Assembly: GCA_934338065.1 (NCBI GenBank)
Contig: CAKRGX010000012.1
Span: forward strand, 1-61,759
Source: an uncultured Eubacterium sp.
Lineage (GTDB): Bacteria > Bacillota > Clostridia > Lachnospirales > Lachnospiraceae
DNA length: 61,759 nucleotides
Direction: 5' to 3'
Part shown: piece after piece, positions 30,421 to 61,759 of the stretch
Layout: each line of letters starts with the position of its first letter
Position numbering within the stretch: the first letter of the stretch is position 1
Translations under genes and position numbers: made by a program
Notes under the pieces: model-generated
Told to the model about the DNA's origin: nothing
Databases searched by the model: none
The model's input: only the letters and a program-made list of their open reading frames with translations

Positions 30421-32385
30421 TTATCTGACAAGGTCACAGTCCCAGTAATCACCAACAAATCCCTCTATAATACTGGCCCCCGCCCATGGCATAAGAGCAA
30501 ACCAGGTACTTGCCGGACTTCCATCCGGATATGTTTCTACAACAAGTCCTTCGCTATAGCAAAAACGTTCCGACATCCAGCCTCTTTTTCCATATCCATA
30601 TTCTCCTTCATATGTATTATATGTCTGGCATCCCCACGCAGCAGTATCGCGCATACGGCTTAACACATACTCATCCCCGGTCTTATCATAATAATATAAC
30701 ATTTCATCTACAATCGTGCTCGACATTGGATGAATGTGAGGATTCGCTGTCGATGTCACACTTCCTCCACAACTCGACCAGCCAATCTCACTTAGTGGCG
30801 GAATCTGTACCGGAGAATTATACATGAACTTGAACGTAAATTCATAATCCAATCCCGCTTTCATATGATGCAGATATTTCTCCTGCTGTGTCAGATCATA
30901 AAGATATCTCACCGCTCTTATATAGGCAAGAACTCCCTCCGAATCAACAGCCTTATCCGTATCAAGCGGCGCACCATAACACTCCACTCTTCTTACAAAC
31001 TTATCATAATAATGCTGTTCACTGCGCTGTGCCTGTTCCAGATAGCTTTTGTCCCCGGTTATCTGCATATAATAAGCAATTGCAGCCAGACACCAAGCTC
31101 CAGACATAGAATCATATTCCAGCCCGGAACCATCTTCTTCGGAAAAAACAAAAGGAAATTCCCCGGCTGAGTTTTTATTCTCATCAAATACACGCAAAAC
31201 CGGTTTGACAAATTCCAGCCACTCTTTATGCTCCTTATCGTTTAATTTCTTTTCATAGTAATAAGCTTTTAATATATAATACATAGCCTGTCCTGCAAGG
31301 TATGCGGAGTGTCCTCCCGTATGCATATTCTGGAACCACCACCCATGTATGCTCCAAACACCATCCGTTACAGCATCATAGGGAAGTCCGGATGCCTTAT
31401 TCATACAATTTTCAACAATCCTATTGATACATGCCAATGCCTGCTCATACATGGTCTTATCCCCAAGCCTTGTACCGGCAAGCAGCATGGGAACCGCTAC
31501 CGACAGCCCATTGGTCCACGAAAGAGAGCCCAATTTATTATAGGTAAAGGTTCCATCCGGCTGATCCCATACAAAACCGGAATAGCACTTTTCATCTTCC
31601 AGCCAGGCGTATTCTGATATTGCACCGGCTATATCCTTTACTGCCACCTTCCGGTCAATCCCCTGTATCCTACGAGGCGGTTCGTGATAGGCTGAATAAA
31701 TATGAATAAAGGCTTTGTGTATCGCCGTCTCATCTTCCCCTTCATAATCATACACGTTCATATGAACATGGACAGATTCTCCCACATTTAATGAAACACA
31801 ATTTTCTTTATTCAGGGTATAATTATTTATAATCGTTGTTGACTGGACAAAAAGCCAAGGCGCATTCTCATATCCCAATGTATATCCAACGCTGGCACCA
31901 TCCCGGATACTGCAGCAATATCCGGCATAATAATCCAGTTCACCGTTTTTGTCTACATAATACGGCTTTGCATCGAATCCGTACACATGACCCTCATCAT
32001 AGATCAGTGCTGCCGGCATCGCAAGCCTGTCCCCGCGTACCATCCAATGATCGGAAGCCGGAAGTGACGGCTCTCCTTTTCGGATCCTCGGATATTTGCG
32101 CGGCACATCAATTGGAGCTTCACCTCTGTTTGTTCCGTACATGAACCCGGGCATATAAAAACGTGGATTGTCTGCTTTATTTTTTACATTAAACTGCACG
32201 ACACCACGCCATATTTGTTCTGACATATTCGTTACGGTTATATCCAACCCATATGGATTCTCCGGGGTCCCCTCTCCCCCTTTCCAGTCAAGGTCAAATT
32301 GTAGTACTTCCGCTGCCTGATCATATTTTCCCGTTAATCCTGCCTGATCGTACGATCTGGCAAGACATAAAATATCTGGTTTCAT
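30421..32385 (-). CDS. putative (alpha/alpha)6-barrel glycosidase-like protein, unassigned family
   Basis: 654 residues, no signal peptide, so probably cytoplasmic. The first 240 residues look like a beta-sandwich (PENPYGLDITVTNMSEQIW, and so on). Residues about 260-650 show repeated aromatic-rich helices (GHSAYLAGQAMYYILKAYYY, YDSMSGAWCLAAIAYYMQIT, SEGVLAYIRAVRYLYDLTQ), typical of six-hairpin glycosidases. I do not recognise the family. A terminator is shared with the previous gene. The substrate may be a plant or host glycan fragment, but nothing in the sequence proves it. Confidence 0.6.
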   Translation of the reverse strand: MKPDILCLARSYDQAGLTGKYDQAAEVLQFDLDWKGGEGTPENPYGLDITVTNMSEQIWRGVVQFNVKNKADNPRFYMPGFMYGTNRGEAPIDVPRKYPRIRKGEPSLPASDHWMVRGDRLAMPAALIYDEGHVYGFDAKPYYVDKNGELDYYAGYCCSIRDGASVGYTLGYENAPWLFVQSTTIINNYTLNKENCVSLNVGESVHVHMNVYDYEGEDETAIHKAFIHIYSAYHEPPRRIQGIDRKVAVKDIAGAISEYAWLEDEKCYSGFVWDQPDGTFTYNKLGSLSWTNGLSVAVPMLLAGTRLGDKTMYEQALACINRIVENCMNKASGLPYDAVTDGVWSIHGWWFQNMHTGGHSAYLAGQAMYYILKAYYYEKKLNDKEHKEWLEFVKPVLRVFDENKNSAGEFPFVFSEEDGSGLEYDSMSGAWCLAAIAYYMQITGDKSYLEQAQRSEQHYYDKFVRRVECYGAPLDTDKAVDSEGVLAYIRAVRYLYDLTQQEKYLHHMKAGLDYEFTFKFMYNSPVQIPPLSEIGWSSCGGSVTSTANPHIHPMSSTIVDEMLYYYDKTGDEYVLSRMRDTAAWGCQTYNTYEGEYGYGKRGWMSERFCYSEGLVVETYPDGSPASTWFALMPWAGASIIEGFVGDYWDCDLVR

Positions 32386-32428
32386 AGCCTGTCTCCTCCT
32401 TGTTTATTGTCCTTTATTTTATCATATA

Positions 32429-32457
32429 TATATACGCTTCACCATATTGATTTTCAA
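32429..32457 (-). promoter_or_regulatory. promoter before the putative glycosidase
   Basis: On the minus strand TTGAAA (32457-32452), 17 bases, TATATA (32434-32429), in the 110-base gap behind the Big2 gene. Confidence 0.45.
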
Positions 32458-32463
32458 CATGTT

Positions 32464-32479
32464 CCCAATTTCTCCCCAC
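32464..32479 (-). repeat. 16-bp inverted repeat, 3' arm after the Big2 stop codon
   Basis: Plus strand CCCAATTTCTCCCCAC, exact reverse complement of 33549-33564. On the mRNA of the Big2 gene this is GTGGGGAGAAATTGGG, 15 bases after the stop codon. See the finding on 5'/3' UTR pairing. Confidence 0.85.
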
Positions 32480-32494
32480 TTACACCAACAACTA

Positions 32495-33529
32495 TTATAC
32501 CGTTACACGAACATGACAGCTCTCTCTGGCACCATCTTCTGACGCATAAATATAGCAGGTTCCTTTTTTCCTTGCTTTTATCTTACCCTTACTGCTGACA
32601 CTGGCAACACTTGATTTACTACTCTTCCATGTCACATCATTTCCGGAAGTTACCGATACCGTCAGATTCAGCATTTTTCCTTTTTTTAGTGAAACAGAAG
32701 TTTTGTTCAACCGGATTACCGGCGGTTTCACCGTAACCTGACACTCACTCGTCACTCCATCCACAGATGCCGTTATAACTGCCGTTCCATGTTTCATTGC
32801 TGTTACAGTTCCTGCCTCATTGACCCGAGCAACACTTTTTTTATTTGATTTCCATGTCACCTTTCTTCCGGAAGAAACCTTAACGTCTAATAGTATACTC
32901 TGCCTGCGGTACAAGGTCACTTGTCTATTCTCTAACTGAATCTTCGGTTTTTTGACTGTAACGCGGCATACTCCCGTACTTCCATCTGCTTTTGCCGTAA
33001 TTGTAGTCTCTCCAGGCTTCATGGCACGGAGCTTTCCTCGTTCATCAATTGATGCTACACTTGACTTCTGTGACTTCCACATAACAGAAGATCCATTTGA
33101 AGTCGATGCACTAAGTGATGTTGTCGTTCCATTTTCCATCGTAATATTTGTCGCAGATAATGTAATTTTTGTTCTCTCTACCGTTACGGTACAGCTTGCT
33201 TCACCACCGGATACTTTTCCCGTAATCTTGCATGTTCCTGCTTTCTTCGCCGTAACTTTACCATATGTATTAACACTTGCAATAGAAGACTGACTGCTTT
33301 TCCATATAACTCGTTTTGCATTTGTTGCTACTCCAACGAGATAAAAACTCTGTCCAATCTTCAGAGTCCTATGATAACACGATAAAGCAACAAGGGAATA
33401 CCCGGATGCCTGTGCGATATTATACTGTATCGGAATGTTCATGGTGATAAACACCAATGTAAGAAGAATAGCCATACATCTTCGTTTCACTATTCTCTGA
33501 ATGTTGAAATAATCAGATATATCTTTCAT
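32495..33529 (-). CDS. secreted protein with four Big2 (bacterial Ig-like) repeats
   Basis: 344 residues. Signal peptide near residues 15-41 (CMAILLTLVFITMNIPIQ). Four Ig-like group 2 domains of about 75 residues follow, each with the pattern VTWKSxxxSVAxV, a central GxVTAxKxGT and an end such as CQVTVK. Such domains mediate adhesion or present surface proteins; no anchor signal (LPxTG) is seen. GGGAGGAGG lies 9 bases before the ATG. Its 5' and 3' flanks carry a 16-bp inverted repeat pair. Confidence 0.88.
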   Translation of the reverse strand: MKDISDYFNIQRIVKRRCMAILLTLVFITMNIPIQYNIAQASGYSLVALSCYHRTLKIGQSFYLVGVATNAKRVIWKSSQSSIASVNTYGKVTAKKAGTCKITGKVSGGEASCTVTVERTKITLSATNITMENGTTTSLSASTSNGSSVMWKSQKSSVASIDERGKLRAMKPGETTITAKADGSTGVCRVTVKKPKIQLENRQVTLYRRQSILLDVKVSSGRKVTWKSNKKSVARVNEAGTVTAMKHGTAVITASVDGVTSECQVTVKPPVIRLNKTSVSLKKGKMLNLTVSVTSGNDVTWKSSKSSVASVSSKGKIKARKKGTCYIYASEDGARESCHVRVTV

Positions 33530-33548
33530 ATAAGAATTCCTCCTCCCT

Positions 33549-33564
33549 GTGGGGAGAAATTGGG
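33549..33564 (-). repeat. 16-bp inverted repeat, 5' arm at the Big2 transcript start
   Basis: Plus strand GTGGGGAGAAATTGGG. On the Big2 mRNA it reads CCCAATTTCTCCCCAC at the predicted +1 region, next to the ribosome binding site GGGAGGAGG, with which its CTCCC can pair (33552-33556 with 33543-33547). Confidence 0.85.
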
Positions 33565-33571
33565 TAAAGGT

Positions 33572-33600
33572 AATATAACATAGGTCTGAGGATTTTGCAA
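33572..33600 (-). promoter_or_regulatory. Big2 gene promoter
   Basis: On the minus strand TTGCAA (33600-33595), 17 bases, TATATT (33577-33572). Transcription would start near 33565, at the outer edge of the inverted repeat. Confidence 0.65.
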
Positions 33601-33641
33601 GGGAATTTATTGAAAAGTTTCTTTATAATGTTTGAAAAAAT

Positions 33642-33670
33642 ATTGACTTTTTCTTTGCCATTCCCCATAA
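33642..33670 (+). promoter_or_regulatory. Rpn nuclease gene promoter
   Basis: TTGACT (33642-33647), 17 bases, CATAAT (33665-33670). Start expected near 33677, just before the 5' arm of the Rpn inverted repeat. Divergent from the Big2 promoter 42 bases away. Confidence 0.65.
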
Positions 33671-33680
33671 TAAGAAGCAG

Positions 33681-33699
33681 GGTTTGTGTGTTCTCCCAT
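33681..33699 (+). repeat. inverted repeat, 5' arm in the Rpn gene leader
   Basis: GGTTTGTGTGTTC (33681-33693) then TCCCAT; reverse complement of 34694-34710 apart from one bulged T. The CTCCCA part (33693-33698) can instead pair with TGGGAG (33702-33707), which holds the ribosome binding site. Confidence 0.8.
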
Positions 33700-33715
33700 C
33701 GTGGGAGGGAAACAA

Positions 33716-34678
33716 ATGAACGAAACAAATCGGGGAAAACCGGGAGAAACAGCCGGGTCCGCATCTGTGATCAAAGCACCTGTGCGGCGGAATTTCAAAG
33801 ACACGGTTTTCCGAAAACTCTTTAATAACAAGCAGGAACTTCTGGAACTCTATAACGCTTTAAATGATTCTGATTATCAAAATCCGGATGATATCGAGAT
33901 CATCACTCTGGATAATGCCCTGTTTTTCAAAATGAAAAATGACGTAGCCTTTCTGATCAACACCAACGAAATGTGTCTGGTGGAACACAGCAGCACGGTC
34001 TGTCTGAATTATCCGCTGCGGGGACTGCTCTATCTGGCAAAGGAATACGAATCTATCATTAAAATGAGAAATGTAAACATTCTCCAGTACTCACTGGTGA
34101 AGATCCCGACGCCAAAGTGTATCGTTCTCTATAACGGACAATTGCCCCGTCCGGAACGAGAGACGCTTCGTCTGTCCGATGCCTTTGAAAACAGGGAGGT
34201 TGAGCCGTGTCTGGAAATGACCGTCGAGATTCTCAACATCAATCTTGGGAAAAACTCCAAACTCTTAAACTCTTGTAAAACGCTCGGTGACTATGCTATA
34301 CTGGTATCAAAGATACGTGGCTTTATGCAGCAGACAGAAGATCTCGCGCAGGCGATCCGGTTAGCCGTGGACAGCTGCATTGAGCAGGATTGCCTGAGAG
34401 ATTTTCTGATACGCAACCGAGTGGAGGTGGAATCCATGCTTTTGTCAGAGGGAACCGTAGAGGAATACGTTGACAGTATGTATGAGGAGATTGACCGGAT
34501 CAAGCAGGAGCTGTCTGATACAAGACAGAAAATAGCGGATGCTGACCAACAAATGGCAGATATGCAGGAAGTTTTGGAACAAAAAGATGTATCCTTGAGA
34601 CAGAAAGACGCTTCGCTGAAACAGAAAGATGCAGAAATCAAGAGACTAAAAGCATTATTGGTAACAAAAGACAGCTAA
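33716..34678 (+). CDS. Rpn family recombination-promoting nuclease / PD-(D/E)XK transposase-like protein
   Basis: 320 residues. The N-terminal region RRNFKDTVFRKLFNNKQELLELYNAL and the later block DVAFLINTNEMCLVEHSS match Rpn/transposase_31-type proteins, with the glutamate of LVEHSS in the catalytic place. The last 75 residues are a coiled coil with a direct repeat (EQKDVSLRQKDASLKQKDA). Start at 33716 with GGGAGG upstream, embedded in a hairpin. Local base composition is somewhat richer in G+C than the neighbours, a possible sign of transfer. Family members act on DNA and are often in many copies. Confidence 0.8.
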   Translation: MNETNRGKPGETAGSASVIKAPVRRNFKDTVFRKLFNNKQELLELYNALNDSDYQNPDDIEIITLDNALFFKMKNDVAFLINTNEMCLVEHSSTVCLNYPLRGLLYLAKEYESIIKMRNVNILQYSLVKIPTPKCIVLYNGQLPRPERETLRLSDAFENREVEPCLEMTVEILNINLGKNSKLLNSCKTLGDYAILVSKIRGFMQQTEDLAQAIRLAVDSCIEQDCLRDFLIRNRVEVESMLLSEGTVEEYVDSMYEEIDRIKQELSDTRQKIADADQQMADMQEVLEQKDVSLRQKDASLKQKDAEIKRLKALLVTKDS

Positions 34679-34693
34679 GCACATAACAACAAA

Positions 34694-34710
34694 TGGGGAA
34701 CACACAAACC
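34694..34710 (+). repeat. inverted repeat, 3' arm after the Rpn stop codon
   Basis: ATGGGGAACACACAAACC at about 34693-34710, complementary to the 5' arm at 33681-33699 with one bulge. It starts about 15 bases after the stop codon, the same geometry as in the Big2 gene. Confidence 0.8.
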
Positions 34711-34745
34711 AATATTAATTTACGATCTGACCAGGAAAGGAATAA

Positions 34746-35156
34746 ATGGTGATGAAAAAATCTTCCCATTGGCAGTCCAATGTTTCTATTATATTATTTA
34801 TTATCTTATTTTACCTGATCCTAGAGGGCGTTGGTATTACATGCCCGATTAAATTTATGACTGGGATTTCGTGTGCCGGATGTGGGATGTCAAGGGCATG
34901 GATGGCTGTTTTTCATTTGGATTTTTCAAGAGCCTTTTATTATCATCCCCTTTACTGGACACCGCCTATTCTTATCCTTATACTATTATCAAGAGGAAAA
35001 TTGAAACCTATGCTTTTCAAAGTTTTCATATTTACAATAATTATGCTATATGTTATTGTTTATATGTATAGACTTATATGTGGGGATCATGAAATTGTTG
35101 CCTTTGAACCGGCAAATGGATTCGTATGGTACCTCATACACGAAGTATTTAACTAA
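34746..35156 (+). CDS. DUF2752 family membrane protein
   Basis: 136 residues, three to four hydrophobic segments. The DUF2752 core is ITCPIKFMTGISCAGCGMSRA, a CxGCGxxRA motif, followed by FYYHPLYW. The function of the family is not known to me. ATG 34746 used; GTG 34749 or ATG 34752 are alternatives. It probably forms a unit with the next two genes. Confidence 0.82.
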   Translation: MVMKKSSHWQSNVSIILFIILFYLILEGVGITCPIKFMTGISCAGCGMSRAWMAVFHLDFSRAFYYHPLYWTPPILILILLSRGKLKPMLFKVFIFTIIMLYVIVYMYRLICGDHEIVAFEPANGFVWYLIHEVFN

Positions 35157-35171
35157 AAAGAGGAGGATATT

Positions 35172-35777
35172 ATGTTTTGTGCAAATTGTGGTGCCCAGGT
35201 TGAGGACGGAGCAAAATTTTGTCCCTCTTGCGGCAAAGCATGTTCTACGCAGGAAAAAGCAAAGCAAGCAGCGGAGAATGTATTCGAAAAAAGTGAACAG
35301 GAACTGGGAAACGCCTTTGATGATGTAAAGCAAAGCTTTCAAGGCAATGGTGGAAATTACACACCACCTTATTCCGGAGAAAGGTTAAAAGAAGACCGAT
35401 CTCTGATCATTTATATTTTACTTTCTTTTGTCACTTGCGGAATTTATGGTTACTATTTTATTTACAAAATGGCGCAGGATGTAAATATTGCATGTAACAG
35501 AGATGGAGAACAGACATCCGGTTTGGTAGTTTTCATTCTATTATCTTTTATTACTTGCGGCATTTACAAATACTACTGGTATTACAAACTCGGTAACCGG
35601 CTGGCAGCCAATGCCTCCCGCTACAATCTGCATTTTGAGGAAAATGGTACAACCGTATTGATGTGGTGCATCTTTGGTGCCTTGTTATGCGGTATCGGTT
35701 TGTTTATCGGTATTTATATTCTAATCAAGAACACAAATATGATTTGTGCAGCATACAATCGTTCAAAAGGATTGTAA
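35172..35777 (+). CDS. zinc-ribbon and DUF4234 membrane protein
   Basis: 201 residues. N-terminal zinc ribbon FCANCGAQVEDGAKFCPSCG, a Glu/Lys-rich linker to about residue 75, then two copies of a membrane motif (ILLSFVTCGIYGYYFIYKM and ILLSFITCGIYKYYWYYKL) typical of DUF4234, and a last helix. The ribbon faces the cytoplasm in related proteins. It lies 15 bases after the DUF2752 gene. Function unknown. Confidence 0.85.
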   Translation: MFCANCGAQVEDGAKFCPSCGKACSTQEKAKQAAENVFEKSEQELGNAFDDVKQSFQGNGGNYTPPYSGERLKEDRSLIIYILLSFVTCGIYGYYFIYKMAQDVNIACNRDGEQTSGLVVFILLSFITCGIYKYYWYYKLGNRLAANASRYNLHFEENGTTVLMWCIFGALLCGIGLFIGIYILIKNTNMICAAYNRSKGL

Positions 35778-35797
35778 TTCAATATACGGAGTTAATT

Positions 35798-37087
35798 ATG
35801 AACAATAGCAAATCATTTAAGCAGATTTTATATCTTGTTATTGAAGGCGGACTGATCGGCACATTAGCCGGTCTGACCGCCGTTGTTTATCGTTTTTTCC
35901 TAACTTGGGCAGAAACTGGTCTGAATCATGTTTTATTCTTTATCAAGGGCAATATACCCGCTATCATCCTTTGGTTTCTCGCCCTTATCGTGATGGGATG
36001 TATCGTCGCACGTATTGTAAAATGGGAGGGCATGGCTTCTGGTTCAGGTATTCCGCAGGTTTCCGGTGAGGTAAAAGGATTCTTAAATCCTTGCTGGTGG
36101 CGTGTACTGATTGCCAAATTCACCGGCGGTACGATCAGTATTTTTGCCGGTCTTTCTCTCGGTCGTGAAGGTCCCTCGATCCAGTTAGGCGCAATGGCAG
36201 CAAAAGGATACTCCCGGATACGCAAATGCGATAAGTCTACCGAATTGCGTCTTCTTTGCTTTGGCGCTGGTGCAGGACTGGCTGCCGCATTCAATGCCCC
36301 GCTTGCCGGTATTTTATTTGTTTTAGAAGAGATGACACATACCTTTGATCACATCATCATTCTGGCCGGTATCATTGCAACATTATCCGCCGATTATATT
36401 TCAAAAATATTTTTTGGACAAGCCACTATTTTTCATTTTCACCCGTATACGATTCCTTTACGATATTACTGGCTTCTCGTATTGCTGGGGATTCTTCTTG
36501 GTTTAGCGGGTGCCGGATACAACTATGTCATGATCAAAACACAGAAGTTATTTCAGTCTGTTAAGCATATTCCACTGGAAGTTCTATTCTCTGCAACTTT
36601 TGTGATGGCAGGAATTTTCGGTTTGTTTCTGCCACAGGTCCTTGCTGGTGGACACAGCATGATCGTTTTGCTGGAAAATGGTGAACCGGCACTGATAACT
36701 CTTGTTATTCTGCTCATTTTTAAATTCATCTTTTCCGCCATTTCGTTCGGGTCTGGAGCACCTGGAGGTATTTTCTTCCCATTATTGATCCTCGGTGCTT
36801 TCGCCGGTGCAGCATTTGGTGAGACCGCTTTAACATTTCTTCCCTTGCCGGATCATGTTCTTCCGCAGCTTATCACTCTCGGCATGGCAGGGTTGTTCGC
36901 AGGAATTGTGCGTGCGCCTCTCACCGGTATTATTCTTATCACAGAAATGACTGGAAATATGCACCGTTTACTAGATATTGCTGTTGTCAGTATCCTTGCC
37001 TATGCCGTAGCCAATCTGGTTGGCAGCAAGCCGATCTATGACTCGCTTCTGGATAATATTCTGAGCCGACAAAGGAAGAAAAATTAA
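35798..37087 (+). CDS. ClC family chloride channel/transporter
   Basis: 429 residues, about ten or more helices. Anion-path motifs GSGIPQVSGEV, GREGPSIQLGA with the gating glutamate, and GSGAPGGIFFPLL are all intact, so a Cl-/H+ exchanger is likely. No C-terminal CBS domains. ATG 35798 chosen with CGGAG upstream; longer readings extend into the preceding gene. The stop overlaps the stop of the convergent arylsulfotransferase gene by 4 bases, with no terminator between. Confidence 0.92.
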   Translation: MNNSKSFKQILYLVIEGGLIGTLAGLTAVVYRFFLTWAETGLNHVLFFIKGNIPAIILWFLALIVMGCIVARIVKWEGMASGSGIPQVSGEVKGFLNPCWWRVLIAKFTGGTISIFAGLSLGREGPSIQLGAMAAKGYSRIRKCDKSTELRLLCFGAGAGLAAAFNAPLAGILFVLEEMTHTFDHIIILAGIIATLSADYISKIFFGQATIFHFHPYTIPLRYYWLLVLLGILLGLAGAGYNYVMIKTQKLFQSVKHIPLEVLFSATFVMAGIFGLFLPQVLAGGHSMIVLLENGEPALITLVILLIFKFIFSAISFGSGAPGGIFFPLLILGAFAGAAFGETALTFLPLPDHVLPQLITLGMAGLFAGIVRAPLTGIILITEMTGNMHRLLDIAVVSILAYAVANLVGSKPIYDSLLDNILSRQRKKN

Positions 37088-49554: not shown

Positions 49555-51315
49555 TCAATTCAAAAGACCGGATATGTCCTTAATCATGGCTTCGTTTGTT
49601 ATACCAAGCTCCTGAAGTAATTCTGCCGGGTCATACCGGTCATAGAATTTTTTCTCTAAACCATAATTTTTGACTTTAACTTCACTAGTCGAATAATGCG
49701 CTGCTATCTTTTGTCCAAAGCCTCCGTCCAGAATACCATCCTCAAGTGTCACAATAACCTTATGATCTTCTCCCAATTCATTCAGCAGTTCTTTGTCAAT
49801 CGTGGATGCAAATCTTGGGTTTATCAACGTTGGTTCAAAGCCTAGTTTTTCTTTTACCGCTGCTGCCAATCTCTCCCCCATCTGATAGAAATCTCCCAGT
49901 GCAAGTATCGCAGCTTTTTCCCCTTTCTTTTCAATCTTAAACCTGCCTATAATACCATAATCTTCATCCGCCTCACGATCGGTCACTTCATTTCCCGGCA
50001 TAAGGATCATAACCGGATATTCATTCTGGTCCAGTGACCAGTCTAGCATATTCAGATATTCCGTTTTTGAACTTGGCGCAAGTATCTGAAGATTTGGTAT
50101 ATTTGAAAATGCCGAAATGCCAAAGATACCAAGATGTGTTACATCCGTAAGTCCGGCAAAACTTGAATAATTCAGCAAAATAGTAACCGCTGTACCGTTG
50201 ATACAGACGTCCTGGGAAATCTGGTCATAGGTTCTCTGGATAAATGTGGCGTTTGTCACTACAAGGGGTTTTGCCCCATTTCGGGCAGCACCCGAAGCCA
50301 TGGCAACGGCCTGTTCCTCGGCAATGCCAACATCTACATACTGGCTTCCTAATTCCTCTCTAAGCTCCCTGGAAAGCCCGCCCGTCATCGGCATCGCCGG
50401 CGTGATAACAAGAAAATCTTTATCTTTCTCTGCCTTCTGCATAATATAATCTGCTGTGATCGAGGTATAATCTTCTTCCGGGAAATCTTCTATCGGCTTG
50501 CCGGTTGTACGGTCAAAAGGCACGCACCAATGCCAATCTTCTTTGTTATCCTCCGCAGGCTTATAACCAAACCCTTTTGTTGTGTGAATGTGAACAACAA
50601 TCGGATGGTCGATATCTTTCACCTGATTAAAAGCCCGGATTAGTTCAATGATGTCGTTCCCTTTTTCCACATACATATAATCAAGACCAAAGGCTTTAAA
50701 AATATTATTTACTGCCTTGCCTTCTGAATTACGTAATTCTTCAAGATTTTTATACAGTCCCCCATGATTCTCAGCAATTGCCATTTCATTGTCATTCACA
50801 ACAATGATTAAATTAGAATCCAGTTCGCTTCCAGCAACATTTAATGCCTCTAATGCCTCTCCTCCAGATAATGAGCCATCACCGATAACGGCAATTACAT
50901 TTCTCTTTTCTGCCTTTAAATCTCTCGCTTTCGCAAGTCCGGACGCAAGGGAAATAGAAGTAGAAGTATGGCCAACATTAAAAATATCATGCTCACTTTC
51001 CTCCGGATTGGTGTATCCGGAATCCTCAGAAAAATGGTCATCATATAGATAGCCGGCCTTCCTCCCCGTCAATATCTTGTGCGGGTAACTCTGGTGTGAT
51101 ACATCAAATACAAACTGATCCTTCGGCGATTCAAATACATAGTGCAAGGCTATCTCAGCCTCAACAATTCCAAAGTTTGGTCCAAAGTGCCCTCCGGCCT
51201 TTGTTAATCGATTAAACAAAGCCTCTCTGATTTCTGCCGCTACATCATCCAGTTCTTCAATCTTAAACTTTTTAATATCCGAGGCGTCATTTATTCTTTT
51301 CAGTAATTCGTACAT
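49555..51315 (-). CDS. DXS-like 1-deoxy-D-xylulose-5-phosphate synthase / transketolase family
   Basis: 586 residues, somewhat shorter than typical DXS (about 620). GGHFGPNFGIVEAEIALHYVFESPKDQFVFDVSHQSYPHKILTGR (in parts) is the DXS opening; VIGDGSLSGGEALEALN and VVNDNEMAIAEN bind thiamine diphosphate and Mg. The C-terminal half has VDVGIAEEQAVAMASGAAR. Divergence from canonical DXS (GPN instead of APN, DVSHQ instead of DVGHQ) suggests a paralogue with altered substrate; dxs itself may lie elsewhere. ATG 51315 has GGAG upstream. Confidence 0.82.
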   Translation of the reverse strand: MYELLKRINDASDIKKFKIEELDDVAAEIREALFNRLTKAGGHFGPNFGIVEAEIALHYVFESPKDQFVFDVSHQSYPHKILTGRKAGYLYDDHFSEDSGYTNPEESEHDIFNVGHTSTSISLASGLAKARDLKAEKRNVIAVIGDGSLSGGEALEALNVAGSELDSNLIIVVNDNEMAIAENHGGLYKNLEELRNSEGKAVNNIFKAFGLDYMYVEKGNDIIELIRAFNQVKDIDHPIVVHIHTTKGFGYKPAEDNKEDWHWCVPFDRTTGKPIEDFPEEDYTSITADYIMQKAEKDKDFLVITPAMPMTGGLSRELREELGSQYVDVGIAEEQAVAMASGAARNGAKPLVVTNATFIQRTYDQISQDVCINGTAVTILLNYSSFAGLTDVTHLGIFGISAFSNIPNLQILAPSSKTEYLNMLDWSLDQNEYPVMILMPGNEVTDREADEDYGIIGRFKIEKKGEKAAILALGDFYQMGERLAAAVKEKLGFEPTLINPRFASTIDKELLNELGEDHKVIVTLEDGILDGGFGQKIAAHYSTSEVKVKNYGLEKKFYDRYDPAELLQELGITNEAMIKDISGLLN

Positions 51316-51349
51316 AATATACTCCACTCCATTCATTTTTGTTGCAAAC

Positions 51350-61285: not shown

Positions 61286-61759
61286 ATCGGGCAGGAGGTA
61301 AATAATTATTTTATTTACCGTCCTCCCACACCACCGTGCGTCAGACTGTCTAACAATTCGAAAATTCAGTCTGATGTACGGTATTTTTATCTTCGATTTT
61401 TTTTATATCATTACTACAAGTTTCATACTCTGCTTCCACTTGTTGACAAGACCTCTCTTGGCACCACACGTTTCTTTCTCTCCACCTATCTGCCACATTT
61501 ACCATAGTTAATTCCGAGTAGTTATTGGACTTTAGTTTGTATTGCAACCTTATCCTTAACTATAGCCTGATGTGATTTCTGTTCGTCAGACCAGAGATTT
61601 GCCATCCGACTTCCTTCAGATTCCACCTCACGATGGACACCCTTGTCTTTGGCTGTATCCCTCCCACTACTAGGGCGGATTAGGGTAGGGTCAAGCGATG
61701 GCGCGGTAGTCCGTTTCCATCGCCTGCCACCTCAAACCGTGCATGAGGTTCTCCCTCAC
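61286..61759 (-). mobile_element. partial ORF-less group II intron, right part outside the window
   Basis: On the minus strand the domain V/VI region reads GCACGGTGGTGTGGGAGGAC, followed by hairpin GGTAAATAA/TTATTTACC and an end ...CCCGAT at 61286, which fits a group II intron 3' end. Upstream CTGAAGGAAGTCGGATGGCA and CTGACGAACAGAAATCACAT match intron domain I-III sequence seen in clostridial introns. No reverse transcriptase reading frame lies between the two blocks, so it is ORF-less or truncated. A second ATGCACGGTTTGAGGTGGCA block lies near 61710-61745. Confidence 0.65.

Follow-up and report, generated by a model that had tools for sequence, protein, structure and literature searches.

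Two divergent genes in this stretch of DNA, one encoding a Big2 protein and the other an Rpn-like protein, raise the question of why the start of a transcript should be complementary to a sequence just past its own stop codon, and whether such complementarity does anything for the gene. A sequence-only reading had proposed that the Rpn-like gene shares this design with its Big2 neighbor. Here, we use "the window" for the whole 61,759-nt stretch that was analyzed. The features concerned are as follows.

32464..32479, minus strand: trailer arm of Big2, GTGGGGAGAAATTGGG on the minus strand, 15-31 nt past the stop
32495..33529, minus strand: Big2 protein, 344 aa, with Big_2 domains (PF02368)
33540..33547, minus strand: Shine-Dalgarno region of Big2, GGGAGGAG
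33549..33564, minus strand: leader arm of the Big2 transcript, CCCAATTTCTCCCCAC
33572..33600, minus strand: promoter-like site of the Big2 gene, TTGCAA-17-TATATT (predicted)
33643..33671, plus strand: promoter-like site of the Rpn-like gene, TTGACT-17-CATAAT (predicted)
33681..33699, plus strand: leader (5') arm of the Rpn-like transcript, GGTTTGTGTGTTCTCCCAT; its anti-SD part is CTCCCA, 33693-33698
33702..33708, plus strand: Shine-Dalgarno (SD) region of the Rpn-like gene, TGGGAGG
33716..34678, plus strand: Rpn-like (PDDEXK_2-like, weak) protein, 320 aa, long C-terminal helix predicted
34693..34710, plus strand: trailer (3') arm of the Rpn-like gene, complement of the leader arm, 14-32 nt past the stop

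Complementary ends of the two genes in the window

The complementarity at the Rpn-like gene is present as had been claimed. GGTTTGTGTGTTC at 33681-33693, followed by TCCCAT, is complementary to ATGGGGAACACACAAACC at 34693-34710 with one bulged T, and the two arms (33681-33699 and 34693-34710) form 18 pairs with one bulge. The left arm lies near the predicted start of the transcript, with 9 nt between the -10 box of the promoter-like site ahead of it and the start of the arm. The right arm, described earlier as about 15 bases past the stop, runs from +14 to +32. CTCCCA (33693-33698) is able to pair with TGGGAG (33702-33707), which holds the ribosome binding site. The divergent Big2 gene has the same layout, with arms of unrelated sequence: relative to start and stop, the arms lie at -35 to -16 and +14 to +32 in the Rpn-like gene and at -35 to -19 and +15 to +31 in Big2, an agreement within 3 nt. 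In Big2, 7 nt separate the -10 box from the leader arm. The N-terminus of the Big2 protein looks like a signal sequence.

The Big2 arms, with 16 exact pairs, are the longest exact inverted pair less than 4 kb apart in the window. The 13-bp exact core of the Rpn match is ordinary when taken alone, as five other 13-mers and one 14-mer form inverted pairs within the same distance. What is unusual about the Rpn match is its position: Big2 (score 32) and Rpn (31) have the highest scores between their own leader and trailer among the 46 genes of the window. Dinucleotide shuffles matched the Rpn score in 3 of 5000 trials when the trailer was shuffled and in 0 of 5000 when the leader was, and with wider sequence spans in 3 and 1 of 3000. 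The third-best score in the window (30) belongs to the gene at 49555-51336, with an imperfect match of 38 nt and unchanged SD folding.

Conservation among Big2 orthologs

Reached through an observation on the Rpn-like gene, the conserved element centers on the neighboring Big2 gene family. Lachnoclostridium sp. UBA3262 has the closest genome (metK DNA 77%) among the 397 members of the bacterial family sampled. For the genus, with 39 genomes, we took the top 24 compact orthologs of the 41 matches listed; one is cut by a contig end, which leaves 23 plus the window. Outside the genus, 26 compact orthologs of the 73 matches listed were taken from the family sample. Longer, partial, and weaker matches, for example a 337-residue ORF in genome G255, were omitted from both sets.

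All 24 genus loci are complementary, with scores of 21-35 and a mean of 28.3 for own pairs, compared with 16.0 for mismatched pairs. The own pair is the top of its row in only 14 of the 24, because some relatives share arms. Outside the genus (26 loci), the means are 26.0 and 13.2. Over all 50 loci (the window and 49 Lachnospiraceae orthologs), own pairs average 28.0 and mismatched pairs 15.0; own scores reach at least 21 in 45 loci, at least 24 in 41, and at least 27 in 34, levels attained by 6.4, 2.8, and 1.6% of mismatched pairs, respectively. Direct repeats showed no excess in the same 50 loci (14.6 for own and 14.5 for mismatched pairs). The five orthologs scoring below 21 (L225, L239, L240, L247, and L250) are all among the 26 from outside the genus, and the start of L239 seems to be misplaced.

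The arms change in a coordinated fashion. In an alignment of 13 Big2 sequences (A3), standard pairs fill 93.7% of the cells, compared with 47-57% when the partners are slid; both sides have changed in 7 of 15 pairs (19 cells), and none of 500 shuffles attains the covariation score. In a second alignment of 8 sequences (A4), covariation was not significant, with too little variation present. Across the 45 matching loci, U.G wobbles outnumber A.C mismatches by 19 to 7 (p 0.014), and in a looser alignment by 37 to 21 (p 0.024). This excess fits an RNA helix and not DNA ends. When the Rpn-like gene was included (25 loci), the mean duplex energy was -35.4 kcal/mol for own pairs and -22.4 kcal/mol for mismatched pairs, and the sense strand gave the more stable duplex in 18 of the 25. 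The Big2 arms contain a median of 16 Watson-Crick pairs (range 11-44).

A forward promoter-like site precedes the Big2 arm in 21 of the 24 genus loci. The spacing from promoter to arm in these 21 has a median of 8 nt and is 6-11 nt in 14, which is only suggestive, since the scan was confined to spacings of about -4 to 21 nt. Terminators were found within 300 nt in 3 of 25 loci, none of them between the stop and the arm. Six stretches from other species share neighbors with the window Big2 gene: a symporter in four of the six, a CLC-like channel in three, and an arylsulfotransferase-like gene in five. These names, like metK and divIVA, are our presumptive identifications, made from the look of the sequences and not taken from a family search. 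In the window itself (32385-37087), Big2 is inverted relative to the six loci with shared neighbors, and the Rpn-like gene, a DUF2752 gene, and a zinc-ribbon/DUF4234 gene separate it from the CLC-like channel gene.

The Big2 half of the paired-ends reading is thus strongly supported by the ortholog comparison. At the level of sequence, we consider the complementarity and its conservation to be secure, and the comparison of loci establishes its long-range nature, its covariation, and the conserved neighbors of the gene. That the element acts as RNA is well supported.

Predicted masking and release of the Shine-Dalgarno region

The foldings used here are equilibrium predictions in which a linker of 30 A residues replaces the gene, and they therefore show what is possible, not kinetics. 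When the leader was folded alone in 46 loci, 82% of the predicted SD pairing went to the leader arm, and the share was above half in 42 loci; in 551 control genes, the stretch from -37 to -19 takes 29% of SD pairing, and more than half in 153. For the 24 genus Big2 loci plus Rpn, the predicted probability that the SD is unpaired is 0.17 for the leader alone, 0.40 with its own trailer, and 0.24 with foreign trailers; it rises with the own trailer in 23 of 25 loci and exceeds that with foreign trailers in 20. Outside the genus (25 loci, with L239 left out), the corresponding values are 0.20, 0.31, and 0.19, with a rise in 20 loci and an advantage over foreign trailers in 21. Seven of the 50 foldings (L159, L169, L233, L242, L246, L247, and L250) show no predicted opening. 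In the 551 controls, the value goes from 0.54 alone to 0.48 with the own trailer and rises in 216 genes, by at least 0.33 in 10 and by at least 0.58 in 1.

Folding covered 31 of the 46 window genes, and the largest predicted rise among them (0.58) is that of the Rpn-like gene. Big2 is third with 0.33, and second is a gene without arms at 34746-35156 (0.34). In the folded Rpn leader, 0.99 of SD pairing is with the leader arm, and the SD goes from 0.28 to 0.66 unpaired; longer leaders start from 0.08 or 0.11 and end at the same 0.66. With each of 59 foreign trailers instead, the value never exceeds 0.17. Masking of the SD and its release by the trailer may therefore be within reach of these messages, as far as such models can say.

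The Rpn-like gene among its relatives

The name of this gene calls for some care. It was inherited from the sequence-only reading, and the window protein may, on weak profile support, belong to the Rpn family. A search returned 817 relatives. Against Pfam, no PDDEXK or Transposase_31 model appeared among the 18 matches up to E 10, and none was found in NCBIfam; PF12784 was detected in 2 of 26 relatives, with a best E of 0.007. The predicted structure is of low confidence (mean pLDDT 66) and had no fold match at E <=0.001, and models of defense proteins gave only weak matches, mostly to the coiled-coil part. Compared with a 96% identical relative (P0001), the main difference in the C-terminal part (34561-34678) is one copy of a 7-residue repeat. 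A 55% identical relative (P0087) is called a HigB mRNA-degrading endonuclease by one source, perhaps a misnomer.

A search of Rpn-type genes for complementary flanks had been suggested, and its outcome was divided. Of 137 ORFs found, 120 distinct loci were scored, 27 of them from the genus, and their own pairs average 15.0, compared with 14.5 for mismatched pairs. Only the window copy (31) and its 57% identical ortholog L008 (32) score at least 24, whereas 0.07 loci would be expected at 30 or above. The other 118 have no leader/trailer match of that level; therefore, this is not a general trait of Rpn-type genes. Two earlier sets had led us to reject such a trait as well, with means of 17.1 and 16.7 for own and mismatched pairs in one (91 distinct loci, 99 ORFs, from 96 of 105 sources) and of 15.7 and 15.4 in the other (31 ORFs at 34 loci, some duplicated); in both, the start rule misplaces L008. 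In phage and plasmid records there was no relative covering 80% of the query, and no relative was found in viral contigs. L302-L305 gave no match, one being partial and one cut. A phage-record relative of 298 bits, which lacks the N-terminus, shows no match.

L008 has complementary flanks with other letters. Its match lies at -55 to -29 and +6 to +33, is AT-rich, and comprises 23 matches, 3 mismatches, and 1 gap; shuffles attain its score in 3 and 1 of 3000 trials. Crossing its arms with those of the window copy gives scores of 14 and 16, so the two sets of arms are unrelated. In the protein profile, the two stand apart from the rest at 472 and 530 bits, the next being 279, and the Big2 gene of the L008 genome is on a different contig. 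Complementarity is thus found in both full-length members of this subfamily that were compared at the DNA level; the protein relatives P0001-P0004 (96% and 67-70% identical) lie outside that comparison. The part of the reading that concerns the ribosome binding site holds for the window gene but not for L008, in which the SD is barely masked: it is predicted to be 0.57 unpaired alone and 0.90 with its own trailer, a value that 10 of 59 foreign trailers also attain. A promoter-like TTTACA-16-TAAAAT appears to overlap the L008 arm, which would then fall outside the transcript.

It is a serious, if lesser, prospect that the Big2 element is conserved and the Rpn complementarity is a coincidence beside it. 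This would account for the 118 of 120 loci without a match, and it gains from the selection of this finding out of 46 genes, from the possibility that the AT-rich L008 match sits in a promoter, and from divIVA genes, which have unconserved matches of equal score. Coincidence is harder to reconcile with the confinement of such arms to two members of one subfamily (31 and 32, with 0.07 expected at 30 or above), with the unrelated letters of those arms, and with the SD opening of the window copy, the largest of the window genes folded. We lean toward the Rpn element being functional. L008 raises that likelihood only modestly because its match is AT-rich, its masking weak, its SD opened by foreign trailers, and its arm overlapped by a promoter-like site. 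The case for the Rpn copy comes from two loci with unequal support.

A possible switch and its sign

We propose a two-state switch in the Big2 mRNA, and probably in the Rpn-like mRNA, that would free the SD on complete messages, and we are evenly divided as to whether it exists in this form. While the message is being made, the leader stretch near its 5' end would mask the SD. The complement past the stop codon, once transcribed, could then capture the leader arm, which would free the SD and might enclose the 5' terminus in a helix as well. In this way, complete messages that retain their 3' end would be favored for translation. We infer both the direction (on when the 3' end is present) and the purpose of the switch. 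If the direction is true, this would be a bacterial means of preferring intact messages. More speculatively, and with the balance somewhat against it, Lachnospiraceae may use a sequence-free form of mRNA self-recognition, in which each species keeps its own rapidly changing match between message start and post-stop sequence to unlock the SD on complete messages, and which is portable enough to serve a nuclease-like subfamily as well.

The same long-range helix could instead have the opposite sign, with end pairing yielding an inert message or an RNase III substrate that is relieved by 3' processing or by another RNA. Precedent points this way. In the icaR mRNA of Staphylococcus aureus, a short UCCCCUG in the 3' UTR covers the SD and represses (PMC3868564). 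In aapA3, long-distance pairing of the ends locks the full-length mRNA off until 3' trimming activates it (PMC6733600). In both, end-to-end pairing turns a single gene off (PMC3868564, PMC6733600). Arms with a median of 16 Watson-Crick pairs (11-44) would also be a possible RNase III substrate, and seven of the 50 foldings are without predicted opening. However, the 3' element of icaR and aapA3 covers the SD itself. In 43 of the 45 matching Big2 loci, by contrast, the main arm does not extend downstream of -16 (the exceptions are L236, at -14, and L246, at -5), and 43 of 50 foldings predict a more accessible SD, counting an increase of any size. We therefore regard the opposite sign as unlikely, though well short of negligible.

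Relation to known systems

Among open PubMed Central papers, icaR and aapA3 were the nearest systems, and no Big2 or Lachnospiraceae element of this kind was found there. icaR resembles the proposed switch in that a non-toxin mRNA pairs its 3' UTR with its own leader to control translation (PMC3868564). It differs in the longer 3' arm of the present case (median 16 pairs, 11-44), which covers the SD-masking stretch, and in a sign that is here a prediction. aapA3 shares SD-masking hairpins during transcription followed by long-distance end pairing (PMC6733600). The products of aapA3/IsoA3 (PMC6733600) and of hok/Sok are small toxins with an antisense RNA, unlike the products here, which have 320 and 344 aa (a comparison of size only), and the predicted polarity is reversed. 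The complementary mRNA ends of hok and aapA have a counterpart here in sequence complementarity, conserved in Big2 and present at two Rpn loci. Hiding of the SD by end pairing is not what folding predicts, accessibility rising in 43 of 50 cases.

Rpn proteins, to which the window protein may belong on its weak profile support, reportedly include toxic anti-phage proteins with an intragenic antitoxin (PMC10327210). Their regulation as published there is by a protein made inside the gene; the feature described here is complementarity of mRNA ends. The Big2 complementarity is kept in 45 of 50 loci while its sequence is wholly replaced, and it would therefore escape sequence searches. For an experimental test of a Big2 switch, compensatory mutations are already present in the ortholog comparison.

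Explanations at the DNA level

With the promoter outside the inverted repeats and the gene inside, a recombinase acting on the arms could flip the gene while leaving its promoter in place, and the window Big2 gene is indeed inverted relative to six orthologs. Such phase variation is nevertheless very improbable: the window gene retains a promoter-like site upstream, 6 of the 24 genus loci have reverse promoter-like sites past the trailer arm, compared with 21 that have forward sites ahead of the leader arm (outside the genus the contrast is weaker, 7 compared with 11 of 21), and the U.G excess is that of RNA. The arms might also be terminal inverted repeats of transposable elements, one per gene, given their inverted orientation around a single ORF and the reported link of Rpn-type proteins to DNA mobility (PMC5350276), but this is hardly credible, since the Big2 arms covary and turn over in their letters while neighbors are kept in six other species, most Rpn loci are without arms, and the arms of the two exceptions are unlike in sequence.

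Leader and trailer matches in other genes

A sample of 687 genes was drawn from 40 stretches of related genomes and the window (840 kb). The sample is not neutral, as six stretches are centered on Big2 orthologs and some of the rest on matches to that query of lower strength, and in it five own pairs score at least 30, compared with 0.07 predicted by mismatched pairs: three Big2 genes, the Rpn-like gene, and divIVA. In the 679 genes without Big2 and Rpn, there is no general shift in the mean (11.18 compared with 11.19). A small tail is present, with 6 genes compared with 1.3 at 22 or above (permutation p 0.004, for a threshold picked afterwards).

divIVA was considered as a further conserved case and rejected. 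Of 30 loci, 22 were readable (query included), with a mean of 16.5 for own and 15.5 for mismatched pairs, and 19 scored 18 or less; those reaching at least 25 are L253 (34), L255 (36), and L259 (25). The divIVA matches are unconserved, yet not cleanly a product of chance. Scores of 34 and 36 in the absence of conservation mean that single high scores can mislead. The divIVA genes at L136:6770-7927 and in L255 have leader/trailer scores of 34 and 36, and in the former, the trailer is without effect on the SD (0.35 to 0.34).

A scan of the window with Rfam 15 at the gathering score returned only a tRNA and a group II intron piece, the latter a domain match of 146.5 bits at 61466-61637 on the minus strand. 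In one of the related stretches, a gene for a 554-aa protein with a signal-like start (L218:4949-6610, minus strand) has a match of score 27 at -45 to -23 and +9 to +31, and this protein has relatives.
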